A stretch of 64,000 nucleotides of DNA, from NCBI RefSeq assembly GCF_010119195.1, contig NZ_WRXL01000005.1, positions 310,001 to 374,000 on the forward strand. Direction: 5' to 3'. The stretch's first letter is position 1. Every line of letters starts with the position of its first letter. The position numbers and the translations under genes were made by a program. Positions 35,624-58,881 of this stretch are shown one piece after another. The notes beneath the pieces are model-generated. The model saw nothing but the letters and a program-made list of their open reading frames with translations, did no database searches and was not told the origin of the DNA. The DNA is from Haloarcula salina. GTDB lineage: Archaea > Halobacteriota > Halobacteria > Halobacteriales > Haloarculaceae.

Positions 35624-36739
35624 ATGGCGACCGAAACCCCATCCGATCCGGAGACGACCGGCTGGCGAGAGCAGTGGTCCGGCTGGTTCGACGGCTCGCT
35701 GTTCACCCTCATCGTTGGCAGTCTCGCCGTCGTCGTCGGCGGCGGCCTCGTCCAGGTGAGCTTCGGCTCGTTCTCGATGAGTATCCTCGATGCCTGGCAG
35801 GCCGTCTTCAACCCGAACGTCATTTTCAACGCACAGGCCTGGGAGGCGTTCCTGCTCGGCGCGGAGGTACCCGAGATGAACAAGCGCAGTTTCATCGTCT
35901 GGAACATCCGCCTGCCGCGCGTGTTCGTTGGCGCGCTGGTCGGGATGAACCTCGCCGTTTCCGGCGCTATCTTCCAAGCGGTCACCCGGAACGAGCTCGC
36001 TAGCCCGTTCATCCTCGGCGTCTCCTCCGGTGCCGGCCTGATGGTCCTGCTGACGCTGGTCGTGTTCTGGGGTCTGGCGGCCTTCCTCCCGATTATCGCC
36101 TCCATTGGTGGCGCGATCGCGTTCCTGATCGTCTACGCCATCGCCTGGAAGAACGGCACCTCACCGGTCCGGCTCGTGCTGGCGGGCGTCATCGTCGGGA
36201 CGGTGTTCGGCTCGGTACAGACGGCGCTGTTCTTCTTCGCCGACGATATCGGTGTCGTTCAGTCCGCCATCGCGTGGACCACCGGCTCGCTCACCGGGAC
36301 CGACTGGGAGCAGGTGCGGATGGCGCTCCCATGGACCATCGTGGCGATGGGACTCGCGCTGATCAGCTCCCGACAGCTGAACATGCTTCTGCTCGGTGAA
36401 AAGACGGCCAGTTCGCTCGGAATGAGCGTCGAGAAGGTTCGCTTCGCGCTCTCGGGTGTCGCCGTCTTGGCGGCGGCTGCGAGCATTGCCGTCGCGGGTA
36501 TCGTCGGCTTCGTCGGCCTGATCGTCCCGCACATGGTGCGCAACATCGTCGGCAGCGACTACAAGAAACTCGTCATCGGGTGCGTGTTCGCTGGCCCGGC
36601 GCTGATGGTCGCCGCCGACGTCGGCGCCCGGCTCGCGCTCAATCCCGTCCAGATCCCCGTCGGTATCGTCACGGGGCTGGTCGGCGGCCCGTACTTCCTC
36701 TACCTGATGCGCAAGCAGGACGAGATGGGTGAGATCTGA
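35624..36739 (+). CDS. FecCD-family ferric-siderophore ABC transporter permease
   Basis: A 371-residue integral membrane protein with about ten transmembrane segments. NIRLPRVFVGALVGMNLAVSG and NELASPFILGVSSGAGLMVL are typical of BtuC/FecD permeases, as is GIVGFVGLIVPHMVRNIVGS before the last helices. It forms the channel for a ferric siderophore and works with FecE next to it and the binding protein at 42282. Its ATG follows the previous stop immediately, and its end overlaps fecE by 1 base (TGATG). Confidence 0.92.
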   Translation: MATETPSDPETTGWREQWSGWFDGSLFTLIVGSLAVVVGGGLVQVSFGSFSMSILDAWQAVFNPNVIFNAQAWEAFLLGAEVPEMNKRSFIVWNIRLPRVFVGALVGMNLAVSGAIFQAVTRNELASPFILGVSSGAGLMVLLTLVVFWGLAAFLPIIASIGGAIAFLIVYAIAWKNGTSPVRLVLAGVIVGTVFGSVQTALFFFADDIGVVQSAIAWTTGSLTGTDWEQVRMALPWTIVAMGLALISSRQLNMLLLGEKTASSLGMSVEKVRFALSGVAVLAAAASIAVAGIVGFVGLIVPHMVRNIVGSDYKKLVIGCVFAGPALMVAADVGARLALNPVQIPVGIVTGLVGGPYFLYLMRKQDEMGEI

Positions 36740-37668
36740 TGGCACAAGAGCAAACGACCGATCCACGGACGAATGGAAGCAGTACAGCGAGCACAGACAC
36801 TGAGCGGCCGGGCAGCGAGAGCGATGGCAGTCTCGACGGTGAGGGCCTCGTGCTCTCGTACCCCAGCAGCGACGGCCCGATCATCGACGGCGAGTCGATT
36901 ACGGTCACGTCCGGTTCGGTGACCGCTCTCGTCGGCCCGAACGGGTCGGGGAAGAGCACCCTCTTGAAGGGACTGGCAGACCAGCTCGCGCCCGACGCCG
37001 GTTCGGTTCTCGTGGACGGGCGGGCGATTCAGTCGTTCGACAAGAAGGAACTCGCCCGGACGATGGGGCTGCTCTCCCAAGAGAGTACCTCGCCGAACAG
37101 CATCACCGTCGAGGACCTCGTCTATCACGGCCGCTACCCCCACCGCGGGTTCTTCGAGAGCACGACCGAGGAAGACGAGCGGGCCGTCGGCCGCGCCATC
37201 GAGCTGGCCGGCTGTGGGCATCTGCGCGACCGCGAGGTCGGGAGTCTCAGCGGCGGGCAGAAGCAACTCGCGTGGATCGCGATGGTTCTCGCCCAAGACA
37301 CCGACGTCCTCCTCCTCGACGAGCCGACGACGTTCCTCGACCTCCACCACCAGTTGGAGGTGATGGAGATCATCGAGACGCTCCGCACGGAGAGCGACAT
37401 CACCGTCGTTGTCGTTCTGCACGACATCCAGCAGGCGGCCCGGCTCGCCGACGAGATGGTCGCGCTCAAGCAGGGCGCGATTCGGGCGCGTGGGACGCCC
37501 GAGGAGGTCGTCACCGAGGAGTTGCTCGCGGAGGTGTTCGAGATCGACGCCGAGGTCGACCTGACGCCGCGCGGGCCCCGTATCGAACCACTCCGGCCTC
37601 GCCACGACGATGACGGGCGGGAGCGGCCGACCGAACGTGTCTCCCAGGCTGACGGCGGGGACGGCTGA
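36739..37668 (+). CDS. FecE-type ferric-siderophore ABC transporter ATP-binding protein
   Basis: A 309-residue ABC ATPase with a non-conserved 40-residue N-terminal extension. Walker A GPNGSGKST is at 66-74, signature SLSGGQKQLAWIAM near 168 and Walker B VLLLDEPTTFLDLHHQ near 188. It energises the FecCD permease. It is the third gene of the operon led by operator site 1. The remnant of an ABC exporter gene overlaps its end, so the operon once continued. Confidence 0.92.
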   Translation: MAQEQTTDPRTNGSSTASTDTERPGSESDGSLDGEGLVLSYPSSDGPIIDGESITVTSGSVTALVGPNGSGKSTLLKGLADQLAPDAGSVLVDGRAIQSFDKKELARTMGLLSQESTSPNSITVEDLVYHGRYPHRGFFESTTEEDERAVGRAIELAGCGHLRDREVGSLSGGQKQLAWIAMVLAQDTDVLLLDEPTTFLDLHHQLEVMEIIETLRTESDITVVVVLHDIQQAARLADEMVALKQGAIRARGTPEEVVTEELLAEVFEIDAEVDLTPRGPRIEPLRPRHDDDGRERPTERVSQADGGDG

Positions 37669-38100: not shown

Positions 38101-40185
38101 TTACCGGGAGCTTGTCCGTTTGGATGGTATCTCTGACAGTGGGTTGGAGACTGTCGTGTACGGTTGTTCACCGTTGGACCCCGTCATTCGCATGGCAGTC
38201 AGTGGTTTATGCACCAGCCGTGGTGCAAACAGCGACTCGCGGTCGGCCGAGACGCGAACATCGGGAACCGATCGGTCGGCAGCCAGACGGTCGAACACCC
38301 GCTCACAGCGACCTCTCACCAGCGACCAGCAGTCGTCCGCGTCGACCGGTTCCGTTGCGACGAGTCGGCCGATCAACTCACCCAGATGGTTCTGGAACAG
38401 GGAGTACCACAGCTTCTCACGGGCTGGCTGTGGGTCGGCTGTACAGATCTCCGACTCGGGATAGAGGTCGAAGCCGAGATCTCCGACTCGCGGTATGCAG
38501 AGACTGACATCGCCGAAATCACTACACAGTGCGCCTGTGGGACGGCCGTCGTCGAAAACGATGGCCGTATTCTGGAGGTGGGCTTCTAGCGCAATACCCT
38601 GCTTCACGAGGAGCGTGAGTGGCCCGGGAATAACAGCGTCGAGATACGCCTCGAGGAACGCCCTGACTGTCTCAGACCGATCTGCCGTCATCATGTTGGC
38701 GGCAGTAGTATCGAGGAGTGCAGCGAGAACCGACTGATCGCCCGGTGGCGGACAGGAGAGGACACTCGCAGCCGTTACTGCCCGTTCGCAGTCAGCGACG
38801 ATCGAGTGGGTTGCAGGGTGGTGTCGAACGAGTGCCCCGAGATGACGGGCATCGTCGTACCCCTCTCCGTCAGAATGGGGGCCGTCAGGCGGGTGATAAC
38901 AGGCGGCAGCTGGTTCGGTGCGGACTCCGAAGCGGTCGAAGGATTCGGTTTCACACCGCCGTCTGATGAGTTCTCCGAGCGGTGGGCCGTTGGCAACGAC
39001 GCTTGGCGACAGTGTTCGGACCGCGTTGGTCGTCTGGACGCCGATGGCGAGTTTGAGGTGTGGCGGAGCAGTGAGCGACGTTTCGTCGGGATCAGGGACG
39101 ACTGTCCGAAGCGATAACAGCGGTGTTGCCGACCGCGAATAGTCTACAATGGGGACAACGTGACCTCTTCGGCACGCCTCGGCATAGCGCTCCGGCACCA
39201 CATGTCTGAATTGCCACGGGTGAACAGGGAGAACGATGTAGTTACTCCGGTCACGACCAGCGGGGAGTGACTGTTCGACCGCTGACGCCAACCCGGGGAA
39301 CAGCTCATAGAGCCACTCGGTGATCGATCTCTCCTCGGCCGACACTGACAGCGTTCGCCTGCTGTGGACCGCAACAAACCGGAGGGAGATTAAATCGGTG
39401 AACTCCGGCGTGAACGACAACAGCTCCGTCGGCGACATATTCCGCCGCAGTTTTGCACCTGGATGGATCGGGTGCCCGTCAGTCACGAGCCGATCGAAAA
39501 AGGCACCAGTGTCGGCGGCCCGACGTGGTCGGTCAGCTGTCGGCACCGGCGTTTGGTCGAGACCGTTCCAGAGGGTTTGTCGACCAAGATGCGCCAACGC
39601 GAGGTTTGCAACGCTCTCGCCCACCTCCGAGCGGAAGCGGTCGGCGTCGTCGGCCGTTGGAAACGCTTCTTCCCGTTCGAGAAGTCCCACGACTGTTTCT
39701 GGACTCCCAACTGGCTTGACCTCATCGGGACGACAGACCACGGCCCACCCACCAAACCGAAAACGACCGTACGGTCCACTCGTTACCACAGGGGCAACGA
39801 CCGAAGCCGACACAGTCGGAAACCGGACCACAAGCAACTGTTCGGCCGGACCTGGATCAGGAACGCGCTCTATGAGTGTCGCTACATCGTCTGCGCCTGG
39901 AACCGTGTCTCCAGCCGCTGTCGTGGCCTCATCGATGCTGACGGTCACTGGCTCCGGAATACCTGCTGGAGCATCCCGGGCCAAGCCACCGAGCAACCGT
40001 TCGAGGATCGATCGTCTGGCGTCGACCAGTTGGCGGCGGTAGCCCTTGTCAGCCGGGTGCCTAAAGTCGTGTTGGTCAGCATAGTAGTAGGCCGCAGGCA
40101 GTGCGCTCCGTTCGTGCTCCGTCAACGCCGTGTGGGCAGGCAGATCGCTCTCACCGTTCGTATCGGATAGTAGATGTCTTGTCAT
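38101..40185 (-). CDS. NIS siderophore synthetase 1 (IucA/IucC family)
   Basis: A 694-residue NRPS-independent siderophore synthetase. It activates a carboxylate (often citrate) as an adenylate and joins it to an amine or alcohol. ATP- and substrate-site motifs are visible: GHPIHPGAKLRR at 237-248, VHPWQ at 321-325, LKLAIGVQTTNAVR near 378, EAHLQNT at 534-540 and the end motif SNPLSE. The N-terminal 200 residues are longer than usual. It is preceded by operator site 2, and a TATA element inside that region fits a leaderless ATG 40185. It is one of three such enzymes here. Which bond it makes is not known. Confidence 0.88.
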   Translation of the reverse strand: MTRHLLSDTNGESDLPAHTALTEHERSALPAAYYYADQHDFRHPADKGYRRQLVDARRSILERLLGGLARDAPAGIPEPVTVSIDEATTAAGDTVPGADDVATLIERVPDPGPAEQLLVVRFPTVSASVVAPVVTSGPYGRFRFGGWAVVCRPDEVKPVGSPETVVGLLEREEAFPTADDADRFRSEVGESVANLALAHLGRQTLWNGLDQTPVPTADRPRRAADTGAFFDRLVTDGHPIHPGAKLRRNMSPTELLSFTPEFTDLISLRFVAVHSRRTLSVSAEERSITEWLYELFPGLASAVEQSLPAGRDRSNYIVLPVHPWQFRHVVPERYAEACRRGHVVPIVDYSRSATPLLSLRTVVPDPDETSLTAPPHLKLAIGVQTTNAVRTLSPSVVANGPPLGELIRRRCETESFDRFGVRTEPAAACYHPPDGPHSDGEGYDDARHLGALVRHHPATHSIVADCERAVTAASVLSCPPPGDQSVLAALLDTTAANMMTADRSETVRAFLEAYLDAVIPGPLTLLVKQGIALEAHLQNTAIVFDDGRPTGALCSDFGDVSLCIPRVGDLGFDLYPESEICTADPQPAREKLWYSLFQNHLGELIGRLVATEPVDADDCWSLVRGRCERVFDRLAADRSVPDVRVSADRESLFAPRLVHKPLTAMRMTGSNGEQPYTTVSNPLSEIPSKRTSSR

Positions 40186-40194: not shown

Positions 40195-40212
40195 TTTTAG
40201 GTTGGCCTAAAA
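40195..40212. promoter_or_regulatory. DtxR/IdeR-like iron operator, site 2
   Basis: TTTTAGGTTGGCCTAAAA, one pair away from perfect symmetry, begins 10 bases before ATG 40185 of NIS synthetase 1 and overlaps its TATA region. Confidence 0.87.
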
Positions 40213-40256: not shown

Positions 40257-42170
40257 TTACGTGTTGCTTAGAGAGGATTTTGACGCCTGTTCGAGGAACT
40301 CATTGGGAAGTGAGTCGGTTTCGCCCGCCTGGACTCTCCAGAGGTTCGCATAGAGACCATCTTCGGCCAGCAGCTCTTCGTGGCTGCCACGCTCGACGAT
40401 CCGTCCGTTATCGAGTGCAAGGATCGTATCGGCATCCTTGATTGTCGACAGCCGATGAGCGATGACGACAGTGGTCCGGTCGGTCGTGACGCGATCAAGC
40501 GACCGCTGTATCAACGCCTCGGTTTTGGTGTCGACGCTGGCTGTCGCCTCATCGAGCAGGATGATATCGGCGTCCTGAAGAATGACTCGTGCCAGCGCGA
40601 TCCGCTGGCGCTGTCCGCCGGAGAGTTTGACGCCCTGCTCGCCGACGCGGGTGTCGTATCCGGACGAAAGTGCCTCGATGAATGTGTGGGCCTCGGCAGC
40701 TCGGGCGGCCTCCCTGACCGCCTCATCACTCGCATCAAACTGTCCATACCGAATATTTTCGGCCACAGTCCCATCGAACAGTACCGTTCCCTGACTGACG
40801 TAGCCGACAGACTCACGGAGATCGCCAAGGCGGACATTCTGTACGTCGTGGCCATCGATCCGGACCGATCCCTCGTCGGCATCGTACAGTCGCAACAGGA
40901 GCTTGGCGACTGTCGATTTACCGGCTCCCGTGGGACCGACCAGCGCTATCGTCTCGCCCGGCTCAGCAGTGAAACTAATACTGTCGAGGATCCGCTCGTC
41001 AGCTTCGTACGCGAAGCTCACGTCTTCGTATTCGACACGGCCATCGGCGGCCTTGAGCGAAACGGGATCGGTCGACTCGTGGATGCGGACCGGGACATCG
41101 AACAGGCCACAGATTCGCTTGCCCGAGGCGCGGGCGTTTTCGTACCAATCGACAATGTTCGACAACTGTGCGAGGGGTGCAGTGAGCTGTTGGACCAACA
41201 GAATGAAGACGACAAACTCGCCAACGCTGAGTTCGCCGGAGAACCCCGGCGGCGGACCCGAGAACACCCAGATACCGCCGATAATGAACGTTGTGAGCAG
41301 GGCGGCACCGGTCAGCAGTTTCATTCCCGGCCGGTAGAGGAACGCCAACTTTGAGACGTCGACTCTCGCCTCGAACAGTCCGTGTGAAACCCCCTCCATC
41401 TGCCTGTTTTCGCGCGTGGCCGTGTTCGCTGTTTTGACGAGTTCGATCCCACTGATCCCGTTTTCGATCTGTGTGTTCAGCTTCCCGATCTTCGAGCGTA
41501 GCGTCGCATACCGTGGCTCAACGACGCGCATGAACCACCACGTAAAACCGACGAGGAACGGAACAACGACCAACGTAACAACAGCGAGTTGCGCATTCGT
41601 GTGGAACAATACGACCGAGATGCCCACGACAATGGCGAGGATACGGACAGTCTGGCTCAGAGCGTTGTCGAGGAACCGTTCGAGATTCGAGGTGTCGTTG
41701 TTGAGGACGGACATGATCTCGCCGGTCTGTATGTCGTCAAAAAACGACATATCCAACCGTTGAAGCCGTTCGTAGGCATCGATGCGGATCTCGTGTAACA
41801 CTTTGTATGCGAACACGTTCATTGCCACACCACGCACCCACGTCAGCGAGGCCGTGACACCGAGTGAGGCACCGATGAGCGTCACTGACAACCAGAACTG
41901 CGCGCTCTGTTCGACAGGTAGCCACGCTGTTGGGACCAGCGGGAGTCGGTACGGGCTTTGTCCGGTGAAGACGGCATCGATGGTCGTCCCGAGGATAAGC
42001 GGCGTCACGAGCGTCGCGGTGTGGGCACCGACGCTGGCCAACAACCCCACCCCGAGCCAGCTGGCCTCCGGGCGGCCGTAGTTCAAAAACAGCCGGAGAA
42101 GAGGCCTTGTCACCTCCTGTTGGCGCGCCCCGAGTTCACCTGTGCCGGAATCAAATTCACCTGAGCTCAC
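40257..42170 (-). CDS. ABC exporter, membrane and ATPase domains fused (probable siderophore exporter)
   Basis: A 637-residue type IV ABC exporter half-transporter. Six transmembrane helices span about 35-325 and the nucleotide-binding domain about 370-610, with Walker A GPTGAGKST, signature KLSGGQRQRIALARV and Walker B IILLDEATASVD. The GTG start at 42170 (MSSGEFDS) follows an ATAAATAACC box and an ACCTAAAA half-operator. It probably exports the finished siderophore, as similar proteins do in bacterial clusters, although export function is inferred from context. A decayed paralog lies at 37610. It lies between the gene for NIS synthetase 1 and that of the binding protein. Confidence 0.86.
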   Translation of the reverse strand: MSSGEFDSGTGELGARQQEVTRPLLRLFLNYGRPEASWLGVGLLASVGAHTATLVTPLILGTTIDAVFTGQSPYRLPLVPTAWLPVEQSAQFWLSVTLIGASLGVTASLTWVRGVAMNVFAYKVLHEIRIDAYERLQRLDMSFFDDIQTGEIMSVLNNDTSNLERFLDNALSQTVRILAIVVGISVVLFHTNAQLAVVTLVVVPFLVGFTWWFMRVVEPRYATLRSKIGKLNTQIENGISGIELVKTANTATRENRQMEGVSHGLFEARVDVSKLAFLYRPGMKLLTGAALLTTFIIGGIWVFSGPPPGFSGELSVGEFVVFILLVQQLTAPLAQLSNIVDWYENARASGKRICGLFDVPVRIHESTDPVSLKAADGRVEYEDVSFAYEADERILDSISFTAEPGETIALVGPTGAGKSTVAKLLLRLYDADEGSVRIDGHDVQNVRLGDLRESVGYVSQGTVLFDGTVAENIRYGQFDASDEAVREAARAAEAHTFIEALSSGYDTRVGEQGVKLSGGQRQRIALARVILQDADIILLDEATASVDTKTEALIQRSLDRVTTDRTTVVIAHRLSTIKDADTILALDNGRIVERGSHEELLAEDGLYANLWRVQAGETDSLPNEFLEQASKSSLSNT

Positions 42171-42281: not shown

Positions 42282-43472
42282 TTAGAGGCGTCCTTGAATG
42301 ATGTCTGTCACCCGCTGGCGGTCGAACAGCTGTTTGTCGGCGGCCACCTCGGGGAACTTCTCGGCGTCGAACTCACCGAACTCTTCGGGATACAGCTGTT
42401 GAGCGACCATCTCGGTCTGGAGCAGATTCACCAGTGGCCCCTGCGAACCGAACGCACCGGGGTAGACGTTGCCCTCCCGGACCGCGCTGAGCCGGCTCCC
42501 AGTAGAGTCCTCTTCGAACGGCGTCACGAATTGCTCGCCGAACGCTTCCGGGGAGAAGCTATCGGTGTCGCCAGTGGTGCCGATCCCCCAGTGAACGACG
42601 ATGACCTCTGGGTCGACTTCGAGCAGTGTTTCGTAGTCGATAGTCCCTGACTCGATGTGGTCTGCGGTGAACGCACTCCGGATGTCGAGATCCCGATACG
42701 GCTTCAGCTCGACGCCCTCGACCTGCGTCCGCATCGGATAAAACGTCCCTTCGTTCGGGTTCGATGCGCTGTTGATCAGTGCGATTTCTGGGCGTTCGTC
42801 AGCGGGCGGGAGCCGGGATTGAACCTCCTGCTGAAGCTCGTCGTGAACCTCAGCGAGCGCCTCGTAGCGTTCGCGCTCCTGGAACAGCTCTGCGAGCCGT
42901 TCTAACGCCTCGTACATCGAGTAGAGTTTGTAGTCGTGCCACTCGCGGCGGCGGAGGATGTTGTTGCCGAAGAACGGGGCGACGTTCTCGCTGATCTCGT
43001 CGGTGTCGGACTCGTCCCACGACTCGTCCCACCCGGTGCTGTGCATGTAGTTGGGGTCCATCAGGATCACGTCGGGATCCCGCTCGTAGAAGATTTCTTT
43101 GTCCCAGTTCGTCTGCGACAGCGACTCCGTCTCCGAGAGCGGCGGAACATCGAGTCCGAACGGCTCGAAGAGAAAGCCGGGAATCATGTAGGCCGAGGTC
43201 AGGAACCCTTCGCGCTGGCCCAGCGCAAAGGCCATGTCGGCCCACTCGCCGTTGTTGACGATGTAGGTCTCCGGCACCGATTCGAAGGTCTGACAGCCTA
43301 TCGGTTCGATACAGGCCTCGTAGCTGTCTGCCTGTTCTGTTGTGGTCGACTCATCGGAGTCGCCCGTGTTGTCTGATTCGGTACTCGACATACAGCCAGC
43401 CATTGCTGCACCGACCGCGAGGCCCGTCCCCGCGAGTAGCTGGCGGCGTGTTACTGATTTATGACACACCAT
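42282..43472 (-). CDS. Ferric-siderophore ABC transporter substrate-binding lipoprotein (FecB/FepB-like)
   Basis: A 396-residue extracellular receptor. The N-terminus has a Tat motif TRRQLLAGTG and a lipobox AMAGC, followed by a Ser/Thr/Asp-rich linker usual for haloarchaeal lipoproteins. The type III binding fold is indicated by FYERDPDVILMDPNYM, LLEVDPEVIVVHWGIG and LSAVREGNVYPGAF. It should capture the ferric siderophore outside the membrane and hand it to FecCD/FecE. Although divergent from those genes, it has its own iron operator (site 4) 3 bases before the ATG. Confidence 0.88.
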   Translation of the reverse strand: MVCHKSVTRRQLLAGTGLAVGAAMAGCMSSTESDNTGDSDESTTTEQADSYEACIEPIGCQTFESVPETYIVNNGEWADMAFALGQREGFLTSAYMIPGFLFEPFGLDVPPLSETESLSQTNWDKEIFYERDPDVILMDPNYMHSTGWDESWDESDTDEISENVAPFFGNNILRRREWHDYKLYSMYEALERLAELFQERERYEALAEVHDELQQEVQSRLPPADERPEIALINSASNPNEGTFYPMRTQVEGVELKPYRDLDIRSAFTADHIESGTIDYETLLEVDPEVIVVHWGIGTTGDTDSFSPEAFGEQFVTPFEEDSTGSRLSAVREGNVYPGAFGSQGPLVNLLQTEMVAQQLYPEEFGEFDAEKFPEVAADKQLFDRQRVTDIIQGRL

Positions 43473-43474: not shown

Positions 43475-43492
43475 TTTTAGGCTCTCCTAAAA
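43475..43492. promoter_or_regulatory. DtxR/IdeR-like iron operator, site 4
   Basis: TTTTAGGCTCTCCTAAAA starts 3 bases before ATG 43472 of the binding-protein gene and lies between it and a TTAAGTAATT box. Confidence 0.87.
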
Positions 43493-43658: not shown

Positions 43659-45512
43659 TTACTGTCGGTCGACCTCTGAGAGTGGGTTGGAAAGCGTTCC
43701 ATGAGTTGCCACGTCCGGACGGGTGGTCGTATCCTCGTAACCGTGTCTCATCATGCGGTTACGGTTGAGACAGTACTTTTTGAACCGTGGCCGGTAGAGA
43801 TCGAACAGTTCGAACCGGGCTTCGAGCTCGGGGAACCGGGCTTGATACTCGTCGATGGCCGCTCGGATCTGCTGCCAGAACCGTTCTTCGGAGTAGTTGT
43901 GGTGACGAGCCAGCAGATCGGCCATATACCGGAACACACCGACCAACAGCGTGCCGACGATCCGGTGACAGAGTGATTCCGGCCGTGCCTGATGAAGGAT
44001 ATGGTGTTTGTATCGGTCGTCGTCTCGAAGCTCGTTCGGGAGCATGGCCGTCAGCTCCGGGAAATCGCGGTCGCTGATGGCTACCTCGTCGACAAAATCC
44101 TTCACAGCGATCCGTGTCGGATACCCATCGTCATGGATGAGGACGACGTTCGTCCCGTGGGGCATGAACACGAGTCCGTACTTGTAGAGGTAGTGGAGCA
44201 AGGGGTCGAGGAGTGTGCCGAGGAACTCGTCAAGCCAGGCTTCGAGGTCGAGACCGGCCTGATCCGCCAGCTGCGAGACGACCGGCGTGCCGTCGATATC
44301 TTCGTGGATGAGCGCAGCCAGCGTGAGGGGGCGCTCGTCGGCATCGATAAGCGATGTCACGCTCTCTCGCCAGACACAGCCAAGCAGTTCGTGGTACTGG
44401 TAGGGAGCCTCGTCGAACTGTGAGAACGTCGGATGTTCGTAGTTAACGCTGGCGACCTCTCCCGGAAGTAACAGCTCGCAGTCGTCCCGGAGGAAGGCGT
44501 CGTTGTCCCGGGTCGATTTGATGAACTCGGTCACCGCCGGGGCAGCCTCGGCCTGCTCGCCCAAAATCCCCCGATAGACGTTGGTGTTGAGCACCCGGAT
44601 GGGGAGTTTCACGTGGCGCTTTTCCGAGTCGGTGACATTCGAGAACGTCCGGATCGACTGCTGGGGAAGATATTCGTCGGGTCCCTCACCCAGTGGGACG
44701 ATGTCATCGGTTGCGATATCTCCGGCGAACAGCTGGACGATGCTGTCGTTCCACTGCCAGTCGTGGACCGGTAACAGGAGGTAGTCGGCCGGATCGAGTC
44801 CGCGGTCGACCAGCTGCTCGCGGAACTGGTCGTAGTAGTCGCCCAGTTCGTCGCTGAGCAACCCAGCGTGCTCAAGTCCCTCGATGGCCTGAAACGTCCC
44901 ACGGTCACGGCTCACCGCGATCCAAGAGAGACGCTGGCGCTGTTTCGACTCGGGGGCGTACTGACAGTAGTCGTCGTAACCGAACCCGATCCGCCCCTTG
45001 TTGTACGTGTACCATGGGTGCCCCTCCATCTCCCCTTCGACCGCTGCATAGGGGAGTTCGAGTATCGACTCCGCGTCGTGTTGGCTTTTCCGGGCATGAA
45101 GGTGGGCGTCGGCGATGAGCGTGTTGTTATACTCTCTGACGAGGTGGGCAGCAGTCGTTGGTTCAATACCGATGTACTCCCGAGCGTCGAGCAAAAACTG
45201 GATGGGGTCGCTCGCCGACTGCCACTCCCCGCCGCCGTTTCGTCGACGGATCGTTCCATTCCGGACGCGGTAGCTGTCGAGGGGGCGCTGCTGGGCCGCA
45301 AACCGGTATTCGACGCCGTCGGTCAGCCCGAGGTGGTACTGCGTCCAAGAGTCGCCGGGTTCGTTCTCGTCGGCCGGAACTGTCTTCGTGGGTACTGGCA
45401 GTACAATATCCTCGTACATGAACTCCGCGAGGACTTTCAGAAACAGGTCGCGGTTGACGGCTGTCCAAATCTCCTCGGTAAGTGCCGACTCGAGTTGCGG
45501 GCGGTTCTGCAT
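43659..45512 (-). CDS. NIS siderophore synthetase 2 (IucC/RhbF-like)
   Basis: A 617-residue NIS synthetase of the type that usually closes the molecule by acting on a mono-substituted citrate. Motifs are EGHPWYTYNKGRIGFG at 163-178, LPVHDWQW near 265, SIRTFSNV, VKLPIRVLNTNVYRG and the end GTLSNPLSE. ATG 45512 (MQNRPQLES) is selected because GGAGG sits 7 bases upstream, an unusual Shine-Dalgarno site in this mostly leaderless region. A 24-codon frame whose stop overlaps this start (TAATG) runs from 45586, right at the operator. A TTG in frame at 45560 is the weaker alternative. Confidence 0.88.
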   Translation of the reverse strand: MQNRPQLESALTEEIWTAVNRDLFLKVLAEFMYEDIVLPVPTKTVPADENEPGDSWTQYHLGLTDGVEYRFAAQQRPLDSYRVRNGTIRRRNGGGEWQSASDPIQFLLDAREYIGIEPTTAAHLVREYNNTLIADAHLHARKSQHDAESILELPYAAVEGEMEGHPWYTYNKGRIGFGYDDYCQYAPESKQRQRLSWIAVSRDRGTFQAIEGLEHAGLLSDELGDYYDQFREQLVDRGLDPADYLLLPVHDWQWNDSIVQLFAGDIATDDIVPLGEGPDEYLPQQSIRTFSNVTDSEKRHVKLPIRVLNTNVYRGILGEQAEAAPAVTEFIKSTRDNDAFLRDDCELLLPGEVASVNYEHPTFSQFDEAPYQYHELLGCVWRESVTSLIDADERPLTLAALIHEDIDGTPVVSQLADQAGLDLEAWLDEFLGTLLDPLLHYLYKYGLVFMPHGTNVVLIHDDGYPTRIAVKDFVDEVAISDRDFPELTAMLPNELRDDDRYKHHILHQARPESLCHRIVGTLLVGVFRYMADLLARHHNYSEERFWQQIRAAIDEYQARFPELEARFELFDLYRPRFKKYCLNRNRMMRHGYEDTTTRPDVATHGTLSNPLSEVDRQ

Positions 45513-45586
45513 TACTGTTCCTCCATGGTCGGTTCGACGGATCGATGTGATCCAGCCCAATCGGTTCGTACTGGTCGGGACCTCAT
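45512..45586 (-). CDS. Possible 24-codon leader peptide ahead of NIS synthetase 2
   Basis: ATG 45586 lies 3 bases after operator site 5, where leaderless genes in this cluster begin. It reads MRSRPVRTDWAGSHRSVEPT, then four more residues, and its TAA shares bases with the synthetase ATG (TAATG). A TTTATATT box is about 24 bases upstream. It could couple synthetase translation to that of the leader. It may also be a chance frame. Confidence 0.35.
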   Translation of the reverse strand: MRSRPVRTDWAGSHRSVEPTMEEQ

Positions 45587-45588: not shown

Positions 45589-45606
45589 TTTTAGGTCCGC
45601 CTAAAA
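45589..45606. promoter_or_regulatory. DtxR/IdeR-like iron operator, site 5
   Basis: TTTTAGGTCCGCCTAAAA lies between a TTTATATT box and the leader frame of NIS synthetase 2. Together with site 6, about 70 bases away, it occupies the divergent promoter region shared with the glutamine-synthetase-family gene. Confidence 0.88.
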
Positions 45607-45674: not shown

Positions 45675-45692
45675 TTTTAGGCTCGCCTAAAT
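45675..45692. promoter_or_regulatory. DtxR/IdeR-like iron operator, site 6
   Basis: TTTTAGGCTCGCCTAAAT ends about 22 bases before ATG 45715. Its right arm runs into CTAAATAAAT, the probable TATA box of the ligase gene, so repressor binding would hide the promoter. Confidence 0.86.
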
Positions 45693-45714: not shown

Positions 45715-47052
45715 ATGGCGTCTACAAACAGAGTAAGCGAGATATGTGCCGACGAGGAGATCGATCTCATTCGCCTGTTGTTTGTTACCCAAAGCGGGGC
45801 GATCAGGGCTCATGCAGTCGATATCGAGAAAGTCGACTCGGCGGTCGACACCGGTGTCACGATCTCCGAGTTGGTCCAGACGTACAACGCGTTTGGTCGA
45901 CGCGACAAGGACGGTCGGTTCGACGCGGCGGGAGAGGTGATGCTCCACCCCGATCGGGAGACGTTTCGGCGGCTTCCGTACGCCGCGCGCGCCGGGGCGA
46001 TGCTGTGCGATATCGAGACGCTCGACGGTGAGCCGTGGACCGTCGACGCACGGTCCTCACTGCGAACACTCCAGACGGAGTTCGCCGACGCCGGGCTGGC
46101 TCCGTCTGTTGCGTTCGAAAGCGAGTTCCATCTGTTCGAACAGCAAGACGGAGAGAGCCAGCGTGTCGACCATCGGGGTGCCTATTCGACGGCAAGCACA
46201 CGGGAAACCCACGAAACGATTCTGGCGATCACTGACGCGCTCAAGGCACAGGAGATTCCGGTCGAGAAGTACTATCCGGAGTACGCTGCCGGGAAACACG
46301 AAATCGTCACCGGACACCGGTCGGGACTCCAGGCGGCCGACGACTGCGTGTTGCTCCGGGAGACGGTCGACAGCGTTGCGCGCAAGCAGGGTTACCAGTC
46401 GACGTTCGTTCCGAAGCCGTTCGATAACGCGACTGCCGGCTGCCACATCCACGTCTCCCTGTGGGACGACGACAACGTGATGTACGACGCCAATCTGGAG
46501 GGGCTTAGCCGGACCGGGCGGCAGTTCGTCGCTGGCGTGCTCGAACACGCGCCCGGACTCTGTGGGCTCACCGCCCCGACGGTCAACTCGTATGCCCGCC
46601 TGCGTCCGCAGTACGGTGCAGCCGCCTTCGTCTGCTGGGGACGGGGCAACCGCGAGGCGCTCGTTCGGATTCCGGCCCCAGACCCACAGGATCCGGCGGG
46701 CTCGACACGGATCGAGTTCCGGGCGGCCGACAACACTGCCAACCCATATCTAGGGCTGCTCGGGCTGTTAGCAGCCGGACGCGACGGGATCGAACGCGAC
46801 CTCGAACCGCCGGAACCGGTCGCCGTCGACCCCGGATCCCTCTCAGAAGGTCAACGAGCCGACCGTGGGATCGACCGTCTCCCCCGGACGCTCGGCGAGG
46901 CACTCGACGCACTCGAAGCCGACACGACGCTCCAGGAAGCGCTTGGCGATGACCTCTTCGAGACGTATCTCGGCGTCAAACGCAGTCACTGGGAGGCCTT
47001 TACCCGGAGCGCCAACTCTTGGCAACGTGATCGGCTCCGGAGCGTCTACTGA
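45715..47052 (+). CDS. Glutamine synthetase-family amide ligase
   Basis: A 445-residue protein with the glutamine synthetase fold. Metal and ATP ligands are seen in [23 protein letters not shown] and [11 protein letters not shown]; the substrate-arginine region is [17 protein letters not shown]. It belongs to the branch related to gamma-glutamylpolyamine synthetases rather than ammonia-fixing enzymes, judged by its short N-terminus. It lies between NIS synthetase 2 and the diaminobutyrate aminotransferase gene, under iron operator 6. It may join glutamate or another acid to diaminopropane or trim its supply. The reaction is inferred. The start is leaderless. Confidence 0.82.
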
Positions 47053-47140: not shown

Positions 47141-47158
47141 TTTTAGGTCAACCTAAAA
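47141..47158. promoter_or_regulatory. DtxR/IdeR-like iron operator, site 7
   Basis: TTTTAGGTCAACCTAAAA lies just downstream of a CTTTTATGAA box and 7 bases before ATG 47166 of the aminotransferase gene. It controls the dat-ddc-synthetase 3 operon. Confidence 0.88.
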
Positions 47159-47165: not shown

Positions 47166-48563
47166 ATGCAAACAAACAACCCGAATGACCAACCATCGTC
47201 GGCCGACTCACCGCCGAGGTACGATCACTCGAACGAACAGTTGCGGCGGAGTCAGGCCGCACGCGAGTCTAGTGCTCGGACATATCCACGGTCGTTACCG
47301 TTTGCCGTCGAGCGTGCACAGGGTGCCGAGATCGTCGATGCCGACGGCGAGACGTATATCGACTGTCTTGCCGGGGCTGGCACGCTCGTACTCGGACACA
47401 ACCATCCAGACGTGACACGGGAAGTCGAGCGGCTGCTGGCTGAAGACCGACCGCTCCACACCCTTGACGTGACGACACCCGAAAAGGAAGCATTCGTCGA
47501 CACGCTGTTCGAGAGCCTGCCCGACGAGTTCACCGACACCGCCAAGGTGCAGTTCTGCTCGCCCGCAGGCACTGATGCGGTCGAAGCAGCCCTCAAACTC
47601 GTCAAAACCGCGACGGGAAACCGGAGCGTACTCGGCTTTCAGGGCGGTTATCACGGAATGACCAGCGGAGCACTCAGTCTGATGGGGGATACGGCGGCCA
47701 AGGAATCGGTGCCGGGGCTGATGTCGAACGTCCACCATCTCCCGTATCCCGATCCATACCGACATCCGTTCGGCCTGGACGCGGCCGACCACGAACCAGT
47801 GAGCCGGTTTGCCGAACGCGTGCTTTCCGACCCCGAGAGTGGTGTCACCGACCCTGCCGGACTGATTCTCGAACTAGTGCAGGGTGAGGGAGGCGTCAAC
47901 CCAGCCCCCATAGAGTGGATACGGGAGATTCGACGGATCACTGCGGAACACGACGTTCCGATGATCGTCGACGAGATCCAGACCGGGATGGGCCGGACAG
48001 GCGAGACGTGGGCGTTCGAACACGCCGACATCGTGCCGGATGTGATCACCTGTTCGAAGGCAATCGGCGGTGGGCTTCCGCTAGCAGTCGTCATGTACGA
48101 CGAGTCCCTTGACGAGTGGGAGCCAGGTGCCCACGCTGGCACCTTCCGTGGCCACCAGCTCGCGATGGCAGCGGGCCGGGCAACGATCAATCACGTCCTC
48201 GAAAACGATCTCGATGAGCACGCTGCGGTCGTTGGCGAGCGTCTCAAGGATCAGCTGACCGAGATGGCTGCGAACTTCGAGGTTGTCGGTGACGTTCGGG
48301 GTCGCGGGCTGATGTTGGGCGTCGAGTTCGTTGACCCCCAGGCTGGCAGCGAGCTCCCACCACCCGACGGTGAGCTTGCATCGGCGGTCCAGACGGCGTG
48401 TTTCGACCGAGGGTTGGTGATCGAGACCGGTGGCCGTGACTCAGCTGTCGCGCGGTTCCTGCCGCCACTGACTCTCTCCCGCAGTCAGGTCGACGAGATC
48501 GCCAGTCGGTTCAGTGAGGCGGTCGCGGCGGCTGTCGCCGACCGCTCTGGGGTGGCAGTGTGA
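47166..48563 (+). CDS. dat: Diaminobutyrate--2-oxoglutarate aminotransferase (class III)
   Basis: A 465-residue PLP enzyme of aminotransferase class III. The PLP lysine is Lys298 in ITCSKAIGGGLP. IVDEIQTGMGRTG holds the Asp that contacts the ring nitrogen, and FQGGYHGMTSGALSLMG is typical of diaminobutyrate aminotransferases. It makes L-2,4-diaminobutyrate from aspartate semialdehyde and an amino donor. The decarboxylase gene overlaps its stop by 4 bases, so together they yield 1,3-diaminopropane, a siderophore backbone. Related genes are acsF (achromobactin) and rhbA (rhizobactin). Confidence 0.92.
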   Translation: MQTNNPNDQPSSADSPPRYDHSNEQLRRSQAARESSARTYPRSLPFAVERAQGAEIVDADGETYIDCLAGAGTLVLGHNHPDVTREVERLLAEDRPLHTLDVTTPEKEAFVDTLFESLPDEFTDTAKVQFCSPAGTDAVEAALKLVKTATGNRSVLGFQGGYHGMTSGALSLMGDTAAKESVPGLMSNVHHLPYPDPYRHPFGLDAADHEPVSRFAERVLSDPESGVTDPAGLILELVQGEGGVNPAPIEWIREIRRITAEHDVPMIVDEIQTGMGRTGETWAFEHADIVPDVITCSKAIGGGLPLAVVMYDESLDEWEPGAHAGTFRGHQLAMAAGRATINHVLENDLDEHAAVVGERLKDQLTEMAANFEVVGDVRGRGLMLGVEFVDPQAGSELPPPDGELASAVQTACFDRGLVIETGGRDSAVARFLPPLTLSRSQVDEIASRFSEAVAAAVADRSGVAV

Positions 48564-50155
48564 GATCTAACGATCCCGACGAGATCGGATGGGAGCAACT
48601 CGATGGGCGCACGCTCGCCGAGCGGCTGTTCCTCGGGACGCCGGAGGGCAACGAGGCCTACGCGGTGGCGATGGATCACTGTCGGGACGCGGTGATCTCG
48701 GCGGTCGGTGGGACCGAGGGTCCCTACTCCGGCGGGACGTACGCGACACACGAAGACCGACTCGACCACGAGACGATCCCCGAGTCGGGCGACCCACTCA
48801 AGGAGGTGCTCGACGACCTCGCCACCGATCTCCTCGAAGCATCTGTGTATCCGACTGACAAGGCCTGCAGCGCCCATCTCCAGTGTCCGCCGATGGTGCC
48901 GGGGTTGGCCGCCGAGGCATTGCTGTCTGCGCTCAACCAATCGTTGGACTCGTTCGATCAGGCCCCGGCTGCGACGGTGCTCGAAGGGCGGCTGATGGCC
49001 GACCTCGCCTCGTTGTTCGATCTCGGAGAGAGTGCCGACGGCGTGATGACATCGGGTGCGACACAGTCGAATCTCCAGAGTCTGCTCCTCGCTCGCGAGT
49101 GGTACGCCGACGAGATGCTCGATCACTCGGTCCGGGAAGCAGGACTCCCGCCAGCAGCCGACGAGCTCCGAATCCTGACCTCGGCGGACGCCCATTTCAC
49201 CGTCGCGCAGGCGGCCGCCCAGCTCGGACTCGGCGAAGATGCCGTGATCGCGGTCTCGACCGACGACAGCCACCGAATTGATCCTACTGCCCTCGCCGAC
49301 GAACTCGACCGCCTGGAGCAGACTGACCGTCGACCGTTCGCGCTGGTCGGGGTGGCCGGAACGACCGACTTCGGGAGTATCGATCCGCTGTCGGCGCTCG
49401 CCGATCTCGCCGACGAACACGGTCTGTGGTTCCACGTCGATGCGGCAGTAGGCGGAGCACTCGCGGTGAGTGAGAACCATGCTGAGTCTCTCGACGGTAT
49501 CGAGCGCGCGGATTCGCTGGCCGTCGACTTCCATAAACTGCTGTATCAGCCGATCTCCTGTGGGGCCTTCTTACTGGCCGACGGGAGTCGGTTCGATCTC
49601 ATGGGACGGAACGCCGCCTACCTCAACCCAACCGGCGACCAGGTCCCCAACCTCGTCTCGAAATCACTCCAGACCACACGTCGGTTCGACGCGCTGAAAC
49701 CGTACGTCGCGTTTCGGACCCTCGGCCGCGAGGGGATGGGGAAACTGGTCGACCGGACCGTCGATCTCGCCGACCAGGTCGCCGATGTCGTTCGCTCGGA
49801 CCCGGCGTTCGAACTCGCCTGCCCGCCGGAGATCAATATCGTGACGTTCCGGTATGCGCCGGACCGTGACCACCCCACGAGACCACCTGAAAAATGGGCC
49901 GATCAGTTGAACCGGTGGGCGCGAGACCAGCTCCTCCTCTCGGGTGAGGGCGTCGTTGCTCGAACCGAGGTCGACGGTCGCGCCCATCTGAAATTCACGC
50001 TCATGAACCCACGCACCACGATCGACGACGTGCGTGAGCTACTACTCTCCCTGAAGGAGTATGCGGTCCAGGCCGAGATCGCGGCCAGCCAGCCGAACGG
50101 ATCGGGCGATGGCCTCGATGCCGCACCCGTCTGTGGCTCGGGGGTGGACCAATGA
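48560..50155 (+). CDS. ddc: L-2,4-diaminobutyrate decarboxylase (PLP group II)
   Basis: A 531-residue PLP-dependent decarboxylase. The cofactor lysine is Lys326 in AVDFHKLLYQPISCG, with the preceding FHVDAAVGGA and GTTDFGSIDP typical of group II decarboxylases. It converts L-2,4-diaminobutyrate to 1,3-diaminopropane. Its GTG start overlaps the aminotransferase stop, and its end overlaps the start of NIS synthetase 3 (ATGA). The order dat-ddc-synthetase matches siderophore clusters known from other haloarchaea and bacteria. Confidence 0.92.
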   Translation: MRSNDPDEIGWEQLDGRTLAERLFLGTPEGNEAYAVAMDHCRDAVISAVGGTEGPYSGGTYATHEDRLDHETIPESGDPLKEVLDDLATDLLEASVYPTDKACSAHLQCPPMVPGLAAEALLSALNQSLDSFDQAPAATVLEGRLMADLASLFDLGESADGVMTSGATQSNLQSLLLAREWYADEMLDHSVREAGLPPAADELRILTSADAHFTVAQAAAQLGLGEDAVIAVSTDDSHRIDPTALADELDRLEQTDRRPFALVGVAGTTDFGSIDPLSALADLADEHGLWFHVDAAVGGALAVSENHAESLDGIERADSLAVDFHKLLYQPISCGAFLLADGSRFDLMGRNAAYLNPTGDQVPNLVSKSLQTTRRFDALKPYVAFRTLGREGMGKLVDRTVDLADQVADVVRSDPAFELACPPEINIVTFRYAPDRDHPTRPPEKWADQLNRWARDQLLLSGEGVVARTEVDGRAHLKFTLMNPRTTIDDVRELLLSLKEYAVQAEIAASQPNGSGDGLDAAPVCGSGVDQ

Positions 50156-51969
50156 CTGGTGTGAGTGCTGGCTGCGAGACCGCAGCCGACCGCGCCGAGT
50201 CGGCGACGCTGCACGCGTTTGTGAACTGTTATCTCCGCGAAACCGACGCCGGCGAGATCATCGACCGACAGCAGGTCCTTCCGGGTGCAGCCGCCGAGGG
50301 CGATGCGGTCCGCATCCCGCTTCCACAGCAGGATGTCGAACTGATCGTCCCGCTCCGCTACGCGTCGCCGACCGGTCGGCACCTCTTCGAACTGCCCGCC
50401 TACGGACGGGATACTGGTGGCGAACCGAAACCGATTGATGCAGGCACGGTCGCTGCGCTCGGCCGACGGGAACTCGCGCTATCGGCTGACAACGCCAGCC
50501 TAACCGAGGGCACTGACCTCCTCCGGCGGCTGCTGGCCTCGCGGAGCGCCATCGATCGATTCGTCTCAGCGCGCGACGATGCCTGCCGAGCAACCGATGA
50601 GCCCGTTCCGTTCCAGGAGGCCGAACAGTCACTGATCTACGGCCACCACCTTCATCCGACACCCAAGAGTCGAGAAGGAATCGCCGACCACGAGGCTCCG
50701 ACCTACGCACCGGAGCTCAACGGATCGTTCCAGCTCCGGTATTTCGCTGCCGATCCGGAGCTCGTCAGCCAGTGGTCGACCGACGACCGACACGCAACCG
50801 ACTGGCTCCTGGCGGGACTCGACGATGCGGCCATGGAGCTTCCGCCCCGTGCCGAGCACGCCGTCGACAACGGTCGTCTCCTGATCCCCGCCCATCCATG
50901 GCAAGCATCCTACCTCACCTCACAGCCGCACGTCGAAGGGGCGCTTGATGAGCGAATGCTCACCGATCTCGGCGCGTTCGGGCCGACGTTTTATCCCACG
51001 ACCTCGGTCCGCACGCTGTGGTCGCCCGAGGCACCGTTCATGGTGAAAACCTCGCTCGCGGTCCAGATCACGAACGCCGAGCGCACAAGCAAGATTCCGG
51101 AAATCAAACTCGGCGTGGCCGTAGCGGAGCTGCTGGATACCGGCTTCGGCGACCGGATTGCCGATCGTTTCCCGCAGTTTTCTATCTTGCGTGATCCCGC
51201 AGCACTGACACTCGACCTCGGTGACGGTCCAGAGTCCGGCTTCGAGACGGTGCTCCGGGAGAACCCGTTCCGCGGTGAGGCCGCAGCAAACGTCTCGCCG
51301 GTCGTCGCACTCTGTCAGGACGGGATCGATGGCCCATCACGGCTCGCCCGGCTGGTGAGCGATCTCGCCGACCGGACGGGCCGGTCGGCGAGCAGTGTCG
51401 CCAAGGAGTGGTTCCGCGAGTATCTGGCCGTCACGCTCAGACCAGTGATCTGGATGTACCTCGAACTCGGTGTCGGTCTCGAAGCCCACCAGCAGAATAC
51501 CCTGATCAGACTCGACAGTGACGGTTGGCCGGTCGAAGGGTTTTATAGGGATAATGAGGGGTTCTACCTCCCCGAGTCACGCTGCGAGGAGGTCGAGGGC
51601 TGGCTTCCCGGCATCACCGACCGTGTCGACACGGTCTGTCCCGACGAGATCGCCGACGAATGCATCCGGTACTACACGGTCATCAACAACGCATTCGGCG
51701 TCATCAACGCCCTCGGCGTCGCTGGGGTTGTCGATGAGCGGGAACTCCTCGAAGCGCTTCGGACCGAACTTGCCGACCTCGCCGAACACGAACCGGCCGA
51801 GTCGACGTTCACGACTGCCCTACTCGAAGAGCCACGAATTCCTGCCAAGGGTAACCTCCGCACGCGGTTCGAGGGTCGCGACGAACTGGCAGCATCGCTC
51901 GAAGAGGAGTCGGTCTACATCGGTATCGAGAATCCACTTGTCACTCGTCTGTTAGAATCACGAGGCTAA
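50152..51969 (+). CDS. iucA: NIS siderophore synthetase 3 (IucA family)
   Basis: A 605-residue NIS synthetase. The nucleotide- and carboxylate-site motifs GHHLHPTPKSREG (164-176), PAHPWQASY, TTSVRTLWSPEAPFMVKTSL, VQITNAERTSK and EAHQQNTLI are intact. It resembles IucA/type A enzymes that add an amine to one prochiral carboxyl of citrate. It is the third gene of the dat-ddc operon and is translationally coupled to ddc. It probably performs the first condensation with 1,3-diaminopropane, judged from operon structure only. Confidence 0.9.
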   Translation: MTGVSAGCETAADRAESATLHAFVNCYLRETDAGEIIDRQQVLPGAAAEGDAVRIPLPQQDVELIVPLRYASPTGRHLFELPAYGRDTGGEPKPIDAGTVAALGRRELALSADNASLTEGTDLLRRLLASRSAIDRFVSARDDACRATDEPVPFQEAEQSLIYGHHLHPTPKSREGIADHEAPTYAPELNGSFQLRYFAADPELVSQWSTDDRHATDWLLAGLDDAAMELPPRAEHAVDNGRLLIPAHPWQASYLTSQPHVEGALDERMLTDLGAFGPTFYPTTSVRTLWSPEAPFMVKTSLAVQITNAERTSKIPEIKLGVAVAELLDTGFGDRIADRFPQFSILRDPAALTLDLGDGPESGFETVLRENPFRGEAAANVSPVVALCQDGIDGPSRLARLVSDLADRTGRSASSVAKEWFREYLAVTLRPVIWMYLELGVGLEAHQQNTLIRLDSDGWPVEGFYRDNEGFYLPESRCEEVEGWLPGITDRVDTVCPDEIADECIRYYTVINNAFGVINALGVAGVVDERELLEALRTELADLAEHEPAESTFTTALLEEPRIPAKGNLRTRFEGRDELAASLEEESVYIGIENPLVTRLLESRG

Positions 51970-51980: not shown

Positions 51981-52724
51981 TCACTCCTGCTCGTCAAGAT
52001 CGGCGATGCGGTCGTTGGCTCCCGAGATCTCCGCGAGCGATTCGCCATCGTACAGACGCTCGATGAGCGCGGCCTCCGCCTCGTCGGTTCCGGTGTACCG
52101 TTCGATAGTCCGGTTGATCTGATCTTTGGGGACGAACACAACCCCGTCTTCGTTGCCGAGTGCGACGTCGCCCGGCTGAACCACTGCGCCGCCGACCTGG
52201 ACTGGGACGTTGATATCCCCACCCAAACTCTCTGTCAACCGCTGGACCGTCCGGTTGGTCCGCCCACGCGCAAACACTGGGAATCCAATCTCGCTGATCG
52301 GCTTCGTGTCGGTCACCGAACCGTCGATAACCACTCCCCGAACACCGTTGGCCACGGCTGCGTGGGTTGTGATCTCGCCCCAGGGAGCGTTCGTCTCGTG
52401 GCCGCCCATCTCGATGACGATCACATCTGTGGGCCCCGCTAGCTCGATTGCCTTGTGTACCATCGTCCCGTCGACGGGGGGAATTCGGACAGTTAGTGCC
52501 GAGCCAACCACCTGTGCCGACTTGGCAGTCCCGATAAAACTGAGTTCTGGTGATGAGTGCCCGAAATGATTGTGATGGCCAAGTTCGTTCGGGTCGACCT
52601 GTTCCAGTGTTTCCAGCTGTTGATCAGTTGGCCGATCGACATCACCGATTACCATCTTGTCACTGTCCGTGAGGTCCACCGCCTGCTGAATGACCTGTTT
52701 CGTCCCATGCGTTTTGTGGGTCAT
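51981..52724 (-). CDS. RraA-like / HMG aldolase-fold protein in the siderophore cluster
   Basis: A 247-residue protein of the RraA/4-hydroxy-4-methyl-2-oxoglutarate aldolase family. Family landmarks are GSALTVRIPPVDGTM, VIVIEMGGHETNAPWGE, GVRGVVIDGS and GFPVFARG. In active aldolases the metal-site loop reads RD; here it is Thr138-Asp139 (DGSVTDT), so the substrate-binding arginine is missing while the metal-binding aspartate remains. Its promoter carries a degenerate iron operator (site 8). Achromobactin and staphyloferrin B clusters contain an aldolase-fold citrate synthase (AcsB/SbnG), and this protein could play a similar precursor-forming role. That is a hypothesis. Confidence 0.78.
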   Translation of the reverse strand: MTHKTHGTKQVIQQAVDLTDSDKMVIGDVDRPTDQQLETLEQVDPNELGHHNHFGHSSPELSFIGTAKSAQVVGSALTVRIPPVDGTMVHKAIELAGPTDVIVIEMGGHETNAPWGEITTHAAVANGVRGVVIDGSVTDTKPISEIGFPVFARGRTNRTVQRLTESLGGDINVPVQVGGAVVQPGDVALGNEDGVVFVPKDQINRTIERYTGTDEAEAALIERLYDGESLAEISGANDRIADLDEQE

Positions 52725-52749: not shown

Positions 52750-52767
52750 ATTTAGGCGGACATAAAA
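52750..52767. promoter_or_regulatory. Degenerate iron operator, site 8
   Basis: ATTTAGGCGGACATAAAA matches the consensus except for one substitution in each arm. It covers the TAAATTT box of the RraA-like gene, about 26 bases before its ATG. Confidence 0.6.
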
Positions 52768-58722: not shown

Positions 58723-58881
58723 AGGTGTCCCGCACCTGATCGGTATGGTGGTGTGATAATAAATCCACACCATGAATGATCGATATTTTGCTCGTGGAGA
58801 CAGTCAGGGTGGGACTTCACGATCCGCTAGGCCCCACGCAGTCGTACACAGTCTAGTGCTATCTGAGACCGTCAGTCGGGG

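Follow-up and report, generated by a model that had tools for sequence, protein, structure and literature searches.

What does an RraA-like protein with an altered active site do at the end of a siderophore gene cluster? This question is raised by an open reading frame at 51981-52724 (minus strand) of the window, by which we mean the whole 64-kb stretch of DNA analysed, taken from a haloarchaeal genome of 3.79 Mb in 14 contigs (G000). The original prediction placed the product as a possible analogue of AcsB and SbnG that supplies the alpha-hydroxy acid for siderophore synthesis. Our analysis points to a different role.

The gene, its neighbours and its iron operator

The product of the open reading frame matched PF03737 with 123.4 bits (gathering cut-off 24.5) and is a member of the RraA-like superfamily. 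Its identity as an RraA-like protein, read originally from the letters alone, was upheld by this match and by the AlphaFold2 fold; only the start had to be corrected. In G218 and G162, the two nearest genomes, the frame is broken by stops immediately before MVIGD, which is also where the archaeal relatives start, give or take a few residues. The true start is therefore probably Met24, at 52655, giving a protein of 224 aa instead of 247. Residues are numbered here in the 224-aa form, so that T115 and D116 are T138 and D139 of the longer frame. G000 encodes two more PF03737 proteins elsewhere, and the one on the same contig (L189) is of the ordinary Arg-Asp kind.

The neighbouring siderophore cluster occupies 35.6-52 kb and contains three IucA/IucC-type synthetases, a binding protein, an exporter, Dat, Ddc and GGS (Table 1). 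The RraA-like gene is convergent with NIS3 and therefore has its own promoter. Downstream, at 54057-61101, lie Gfo/Idh-like and sugar-type genes, named by inspection.

Table 1. Siderophore cluster, RraA-like gene and iron operators, in positions of the window
Feature	Position	Strand	Remark
Iron operator	35070..35085		exact
FecCD-type permease	35624..36739	+	named by inspection only
FecE-type ATPase	36739..37668	+	named by inspection only
NIS1, FslA-like synthetase	38101..40185	-	family models
Iron operator before NIS1	40196..40211		exact
ABC exporter	40257..42170	-	family models
Iron-siderophore substrate-binding protein	42282..43472	-	PF01497
Iron operator before binding protein	43476..43491		exact
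NIS2, SbnF-like synthetase	43659..45560	-	family models
Iron operator before NIS2	45590..45605		exact
Iron operator before GGS	45676..45691		exact
GGS, gamma-glutamylputrescine-synthetase-like ligase	45715..47052	+	NF045547 723 bits, cut-off 650
Iron operator before Dat	47142..47157		exact
Dat, diaminobutyrate-2-oxoglutarate transaminase	47166..48563	+	over model cut-off
Ddc, diaminobutyrate-decarboxylase-like	48560..50155	+	RhbB model 400 bits, below its cut-off 900
NIS3, IucA/IucC-type synthetase	50152..51969	+	convergent with RraA-like gene, 11 bp between
Thr-Asp RraA-like protein, probable extent, 224 aa	51981..52655	-	start inferred from relatives
Iron operator upstream of RraA-like gene	52751..52766		one mismatch

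Two stretches of the cluster deserve a remark of their own. Right behind the exact operator at 35070, an ORF at 35090-35623 (+) begins like a binding-protein signal (TRREYVKYGG) and continues unlike one; it may be a binding-protein gene, truncated or fused, ahead of the permease. The stretch 37610-38140 (+) looks like a decayed second copy of the ABC exporter gene (40257-42170): its short ORFs, in changing frames, are similar by eye to the exporter's N-terminal part.

Eight genomes were scanned for the Lys/Orn monooxygenase family PF13434, which was present in four (G192, G214, G264 and G225) and was not found in G000, G218, G162 or G066. A carboxylate-type siderophore is therefore likelier for the window organism, and a hydroxamate siderophore, which we had considered, is disfavoured rather than disproved.

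We scanned the whole window for the motif TTTAGGN4CCTAAA with at most one mismatch, which we take to be a DtxR-family (Idr/SirR) site. It occurred seven times in 64 kb, where 0.01 occurrences were expected, and none of 100 shuffles reached seven. All seven sites lie at the siderophore cluster; six are exact, and the seventh is the degenerate operator that had been noticed at the promoter of the RraA-like gene. Where upstream regions of this gene could be aligned, the operator was exact in G162, G192, G214 and G264 and had one mismatch in G218, so that, the window included, it is present in 6/6 genomes. Among the fetched loci, exact TTAGGN4CCTAA was confined to archaeal NIS or GGS loci, with none in the Nit-linked archaeal loci or in the Arg-Asp control loci described below. 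DtxR-family-type regulators have been named in haloarchaea, in a paper whose accessible part does not give the motif (PMC11349517).

Fold and active-site residues of the Thr-Asp proteins

The AlphaFold2 model of the window protein (mean pLDDT 94.6) found its best PDB match in 3NOJ, an HMG/CHA aldolase (VIA Z 28.8, rmsd 2.3 over 219 residues). Structural neighbours outside the RraA proteins, namely a dihydroxyacid dehydratase domain, isatin hydrolase and kynurenine formamidase, reached Z 7-9 and were set aside, as such values may reflect merely a common arrangement. PF03737 was the sole family matched: the protein did not match the HpcH/HpaI fold (PF03328), and its model matches RraA-fold entries. 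It stayed below the cut-offs of both equivalog models, scoring 102.8 bits against TIGR02798 (HMG/CHA aldolase, LigK; cut-off 304.5) and 21.7 bits against TIGR02998 (E. coli-type RraA; cut-off 241.25).

Alignment with 3NOJ placed T115 and D116 on Arg123 and Asp124, H67 on His75, E94 on Asp102, T136 on Gly144 and G63 on Asn71. The Thr138-Asp139 pair had thus been rightly located where active HMG aldolases carry their Arg. To see how far these residues are kept, we compared 83 Thr-Asp (T-D) rows with 25 Arg-Asp (R-D) relatives. The T-D rows include ten duplicates from genomes already represented (L054, L055, L057-L062, L192 and L198), which the residue count keeps, and stand for 73 distinct loci; the R-D control comprises 24 archaeal 20-kb loci, lower-scoring matches of the search (L050-L053 and L170-L189), and the plasmid locus L194. 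T115, D116 and T136 were invariant in 83/83 T-D rows and H27 was present in 82/83, the sole row without residue 27 being a fragment (L164); the R-D relatives had R115, D116, G136 and D or E at position 27 in 25/25. Because these residues are fixed on either side, the switch to H27, T115 and T136 is, in the aligned rows, a fixed three-residue signature, which the window protein fits and whose definition is drawn from the same rows it is tested on.

Such changes matter in the Pseudomonas putida aldolase, where Arg123Ala brought activity below detection, Arg123Lys lowered kcat 181-fold and Gly144Val reduced it from 15.6 to 0.215 per second, according to the part of the report available (PMC5065237). 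A changed active site, as the original prediction had it, therefore stands, on the alignment, the conservation and the inactive Arg123Ala variant together. Conservation of the metal-binding residues held for Asp139 but failed for the other acidic residue: position 94, the equivalent of Asp102, is Glu in the window protein, whereas G162 and G066 have Ala there and several bacterial members either Gly or Ala, so that metal binding by T-D proteins is not secured. We also considered a dead enzyme or decayed gene, which is unlikely because the subfamily keeps the altered residues throughout.

Recurrent linkage to siderophore genes

The archaeal search covered 392 genomes of the order and four families (146, 125, 170 and 28 genomes, in overlapping sets) and found the T-D gene in 19. 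NIS genes lie within about 10 kb of it in seven (G000, G218, G162, G066, G214, G264 and G225), and a Nit-type hydrolase adjoins it in nine. G192 and G408 have GGS nearby without NIS genes, those of G192 being on another contig, and G166 shows only a weak hydrolase match; G408 and G536 were taken as the genomes of loci L067 and L056 by contig position. GGS, a gamma-glutamyl-amine-ligase-like gene, was present in 7/7 archaeal NIS loci, and in Haloprofundus halobius (L192, which agrees with G225 in contig position) it is 3 bp from the RraA-like gene on one strand. No FhuF match was found near archaeal T-D genes, and none to an HpcH aldolase in the archaeal NIS loci. The archaeal synthetases scanned scored at best 87.5 bits against the SbnC model, compared with 370-378 for the bacterial ones. 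NIS genes over cut-off occurred in 119/392 genomes, of which seven had the T-D gene alongside; as an accessory, the linked T-D protein therefore accompanies a minority of the NIS systems of haloarchaea. In H. volcanii the cluster has six genes, with no RraA-type member mentioned in the part of its description that was accessible (PMC7407949).

Two further features of these archaeal loci were seen. A polysaccharide-deacetylase-family protein (family PF01522, checked on L039) is encoded between the RraA-like gene and GGS in L037 (10597-11445), L038 (8898-9749) and L039 (10585-11442), with exact iron operators near these genes. L038 also carries, at 4469-7249 inside its siderophore cluster, two tandem gamma-glutamylputrescine-synthetase-like genes, both over the family cut-off.

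A pattern scan of genome contigs yielded bacterial T-D members, two of them in NIS operons (L066 and L070), and NIS-linked members are now seen in Pseudomonas, Acinetobacter, Sodalis and Thalassospira. From 31 further Pseudomonas genomes with a match of at least 50% identity, 20 regions were fetched, and these contained NIS genes in 20/20, a FhuF-type gene in 20/20 and an HpcH/HpaI aldolase in 19/20. The 17 Acinetobacter loci (L150-L166) fetched of 19 further matches had NIS genes in 17/17, FhuF in 14/17 and HpcH in 0/17. Wherever the FhuF-type gene was present in these two samples (20/20 and 14/17), it directly preceded the T-D gene. An HpcH/HpaI aldolase of the AcsB/SbnG kind shares the operon in the 19 of 20 Pseudomonas regions and L070, in Acinetobacter NIPH 2100 (L066), and in Sodalis and Thalassospira; the records of Sodalis pSG1 and of the Thalassospira plasmid have an achromobactin-like gene order ending in FhuF-like and RraA genes. 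One Pseudomonas locus, L138, retains the operon tail and gave no match to the HpcH aldolase or the first synthetase; it is possibly a rearranged operon.

With three lower-scoring Pseudomonas loci also taken (L167-L169), and with partners read from record annotation for L190-L198 and by tblastn elsewhere, the 73 distinct T-D loci divide into 48 with NIS genes, 14 with a CN hydrolase (2 by annotation only), 5 with RidA, 2 with HpcH only and 4 others, among them L042 with its weak CN-hydrolase match (74 bits); near-identical operons within one genus are not independent evidence in this count. NIS, GGS, Nit-type hydrolase, RidA and HpcH genes were found near 0/25 of the R-D control loci. The linkage to siderophore genes expected of related genomes thus appeared both in haloarchaea (7 of 19 T-D genomes) and in the wider set of loci.

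A maximum-likelihood tree was built from another set of 83 rows, with 20 R-D rows in and most second copies out. The R-D rows fall on one side of a branch (100/99), and the order of the T-D lineages and the deep order are not settled. Archaeal T-D rows group together (100/98), as do bacterial NIS-linked rows (100/99), and some long branches meet. NIS linkage thus occurs in separate lineages and alternates with Nit linkage, the NIS-linked L049 being placed within the Nit-linked archaeal proteins. The Thr-Asp proteins are almost certainly a distinct subfamily of RraA-fold proteins.

The hydrolases of the non-siderophore loci were compared by sequence in three of the 14 hydrolase-paired loci. Those of L041 and L168 have Nit2 (2w1v), Nit-Fhit (1ems) and YLR351C (1f89) as best PDB sequences. 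Among NCBIfam models, one for deaminated-glutathione amidase ranked first for L041, L063 and L168, in each case below cut-off. An HpcH aldolase is the partner in two T-D loci, a Zn-dependent hydrolase in one. In L193 and L196 the T-D RraA gene has as neighbours an ornithine-cyclodeaminase-family gene and a gene for a Zn-dependent hydrolase, together with an ABC importer of the peptide type.

What the Thr-Asp protein may do

A siderophore role for the T-D protein is very probable. As to what that role is, our leading reading, to which we give a probability of roughly 0.35, is that this RraA-fold protein is an iron-regulated NIS accessory enzyme acting on a 2-oxoglutarate-amide hemiaminal rather than making citrate. 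We infer that it is an enzyme, as well as the class of its substrate and the direction of its reaction; the hemiaminal chemistry, taken by itself, is doubtful. N-substituted 2-oxoglutarate gamma-amides would fold into a cyclic hemiaminal of the 2-hydroxy-5-oxoproline type, whose alpha-hydroxy-carboxylate could bind metal as the HMG carbinol carboxylate would in HMG aldolase. A C-N bond would be broken or made there, with the amide nitrogen and not a pyruvate enolate as leaving group, and we propose that the enolate-stabilising Arg would for this reason be dispensable. In siderophore producers, ring closure by the enzyme might complete the iron-binding group, or ring opening after uptake might free the iron; in non-siderophore loci the enzyme might feed the open chain to an omega-amidase. 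By conjecture, the amide could come from an SbnC-like synthetase in bacteria and from GGS and a transaminase in archaea.

The cyclic 2-oxoglutarate-amide hemiaminal group occurs in achromobactin-type siderophores, and to our knowledge ring opening and closing of 2-oxoglutarate gamma-amides has so far been taken as spontaneous. Enzymes of the Nit2 omega-amidase and deaminated-glutathione amidase type hydrolyse gamma-amides of 2-oxoglutarate; the idea of a 2-oxoglutarate amide came from the siderophore side and preceded the amidase comparison. 2-Oxoglutaramate is mostly lactam at physiological pH, as stated in the accessible part of one source (PMC5485471). A broader reading, tentative at best, is that the subfamily could be an N-acyl-hemiaminal lyase/cyclase interconverting the open and ring forms of 2-oxoglutarate gamma-amides, and perhaps of related carbinolamides, common to NIS pathways in archaea and bacteria and to pathways with Nit-type omega-amidase and RidA; it would then be the enzyme hitherto lacking for this ring opening or closing.

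Several observations weigh against the hemiaminal idea. It does not predict the pairings with HpcH and with the Zn-dependent hydrolase, and most NIS-bearing haloarchaea have no linked T-D protein. Since none of the archaeal synthetases scanned is clearly of the SbnC kind, 2-oxoglutarate in the siderophore of the window organism is a guess. Furthermore, staphyloferrin B and vibrioferrin contain 2-oxoglutarate and, as far as we know, have no RraA gene in their clusters, so that the step cannot be obligatory.

The strongest competitor, although unlikely, is siderophore breakdown or iron release by another lyase or decarboxylase reaction, following a FhuF-type reductase. The position of the FhuF-type gene in Pseudomonas and Acinetobacter suits it, as do non-siderophore loci that look catabolic and have importers; the archaeal T-D genes, however, are without a FhuF match, and bfnG, a bacterial counterpart, has been filed under biosynthesis, apparently by prediction (PMC10483418, in the part available). 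Less probable is that an ordinary 2-oxo-acid aldolase or oxaloacetate decarboxylase activity was kept, another residue replacing Arg123. An HMG/CHA aldolase is indeed the best structural match, and position 138 or 139 often carries a basic residue, but the Arg123 and Gly144 positions are both Thr in every T-D row, and the P. putida variants at these positions lost most or all detectable activity.

The supply of citrate, or of another tertiary alpha-hydroxy acid made from 2-oxo acids, to the NIS synthetases fares slightly worse. The pyruvate-aldolase fold, the NIS linkage with its iron operator, and the archaeal NIS loci and 17 Acinetobacter loci without an HpcH match would all fit this role. 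Yet in Pseudomonas, Sodalis, Thalassospira and L066 the T-D protein shares its operon with an aldolase of the AcsB/SbnG kind and therefore does a different job there, and an ordinary citrate synthase was present in 8/8 archaeal genomes tested. The enolate-stabilising Arg is absent, and citrate synthesis would not explain T-D proteins found without NIS genes, with amidases and RidA. We therefore rejected citrate supply as the likeliest role, and with it the original placement, which is improbable.

Still weaker is the case for a non-catalytic regulator of the cluster, an RraA-like protein-protein partner: the RraA of E. coli does bind the RNA degradosome (PMC5065237, in the part available), whereas residues aligned with the aldolase active site are strictly conserved in the T-D proteins and the RraA model score is far too low. 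Finally, membership of the downstream sugar genes, adjacent by chance, which the position outside the NIS3 operon might suggest, is scarcely credible and was rejected on the conserved operator and on NIS linkage in other families with different flanks, both read from sequence.

If the hemiaminal reading is right, it would explain the closing or opening of an iron-binding group derived from 2-oxoglutarate, and would give the omega-amidase a ring-opening partner. Should that chemistry fail, the T-D subfamily is still a clear target, with three fixed residues and several natural contexts. Either way, a gene of well-studied siderophore clusters (achromobactin, baumannoferrin) is placed in a residue-switched subfamily that reaches into archaea.

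In the literature searched, which leaves most subscription journals outside, we found no functional assay of BfnG, Psyr_2595 or any T-D member, and 'siderophore' and 'RraA family' occurred jointly only in an A. baumannii survey. The available part of that literature describes bfnG as an 'RraA family protein' gene after bfnF and before the TonB receptor in the baumannoferrin cluster, baumannoferrin itself containing alpha-ketoglutarate (PMC10483418). In P. syringae B728a the achromobactin cluster ends with Psyr_2595 ('Menaquinone biosynthesis'), which was down 2.7-fold in an acsS mutant, again from the part accessible (PMC3329529). BfnG and Psyr_2595 are apparent counterparts of the T-D proteins, equated by gene order and annotation and not from the named records.

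Each, like the window gene, is found where a NIS siderophore cluster has its uptake end, and is classed as RraA family or 'menaquinone biosynthesis'; Acinetobacter and Pseudomonas loci with their gene order encode the same Thr-Asp signature. They differ in being bacterial and on the same strand, behind a FhuF-type gene, and NIS-linked bacterial T-D members share only about 19-32% identity with the window protein. The citrate synthases AcsB and SbnG belong to the same kind of cluster but to another family (PF03328 as opposed to PF03737), and stand beside the T-D protein in several operons. With the P. putida HMG/CHA aldolase (3NOJ, LigK/PcmE type) the window protein has the fold in common over 219 residues and keeps the Asp124 and His75 positions, while Thr, Thr, Gly and Glu replace Arg123, Gly144, Asn71 and Asp102. 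It also shares the core fold of E. coli RraA, the RNase E regulator, but is longer and scores far under that family's cut-off. The window thus encodes an archaeal variant of a protein already listed in bacterial siderophore clusters, and the archaeal gene has an iron operator.
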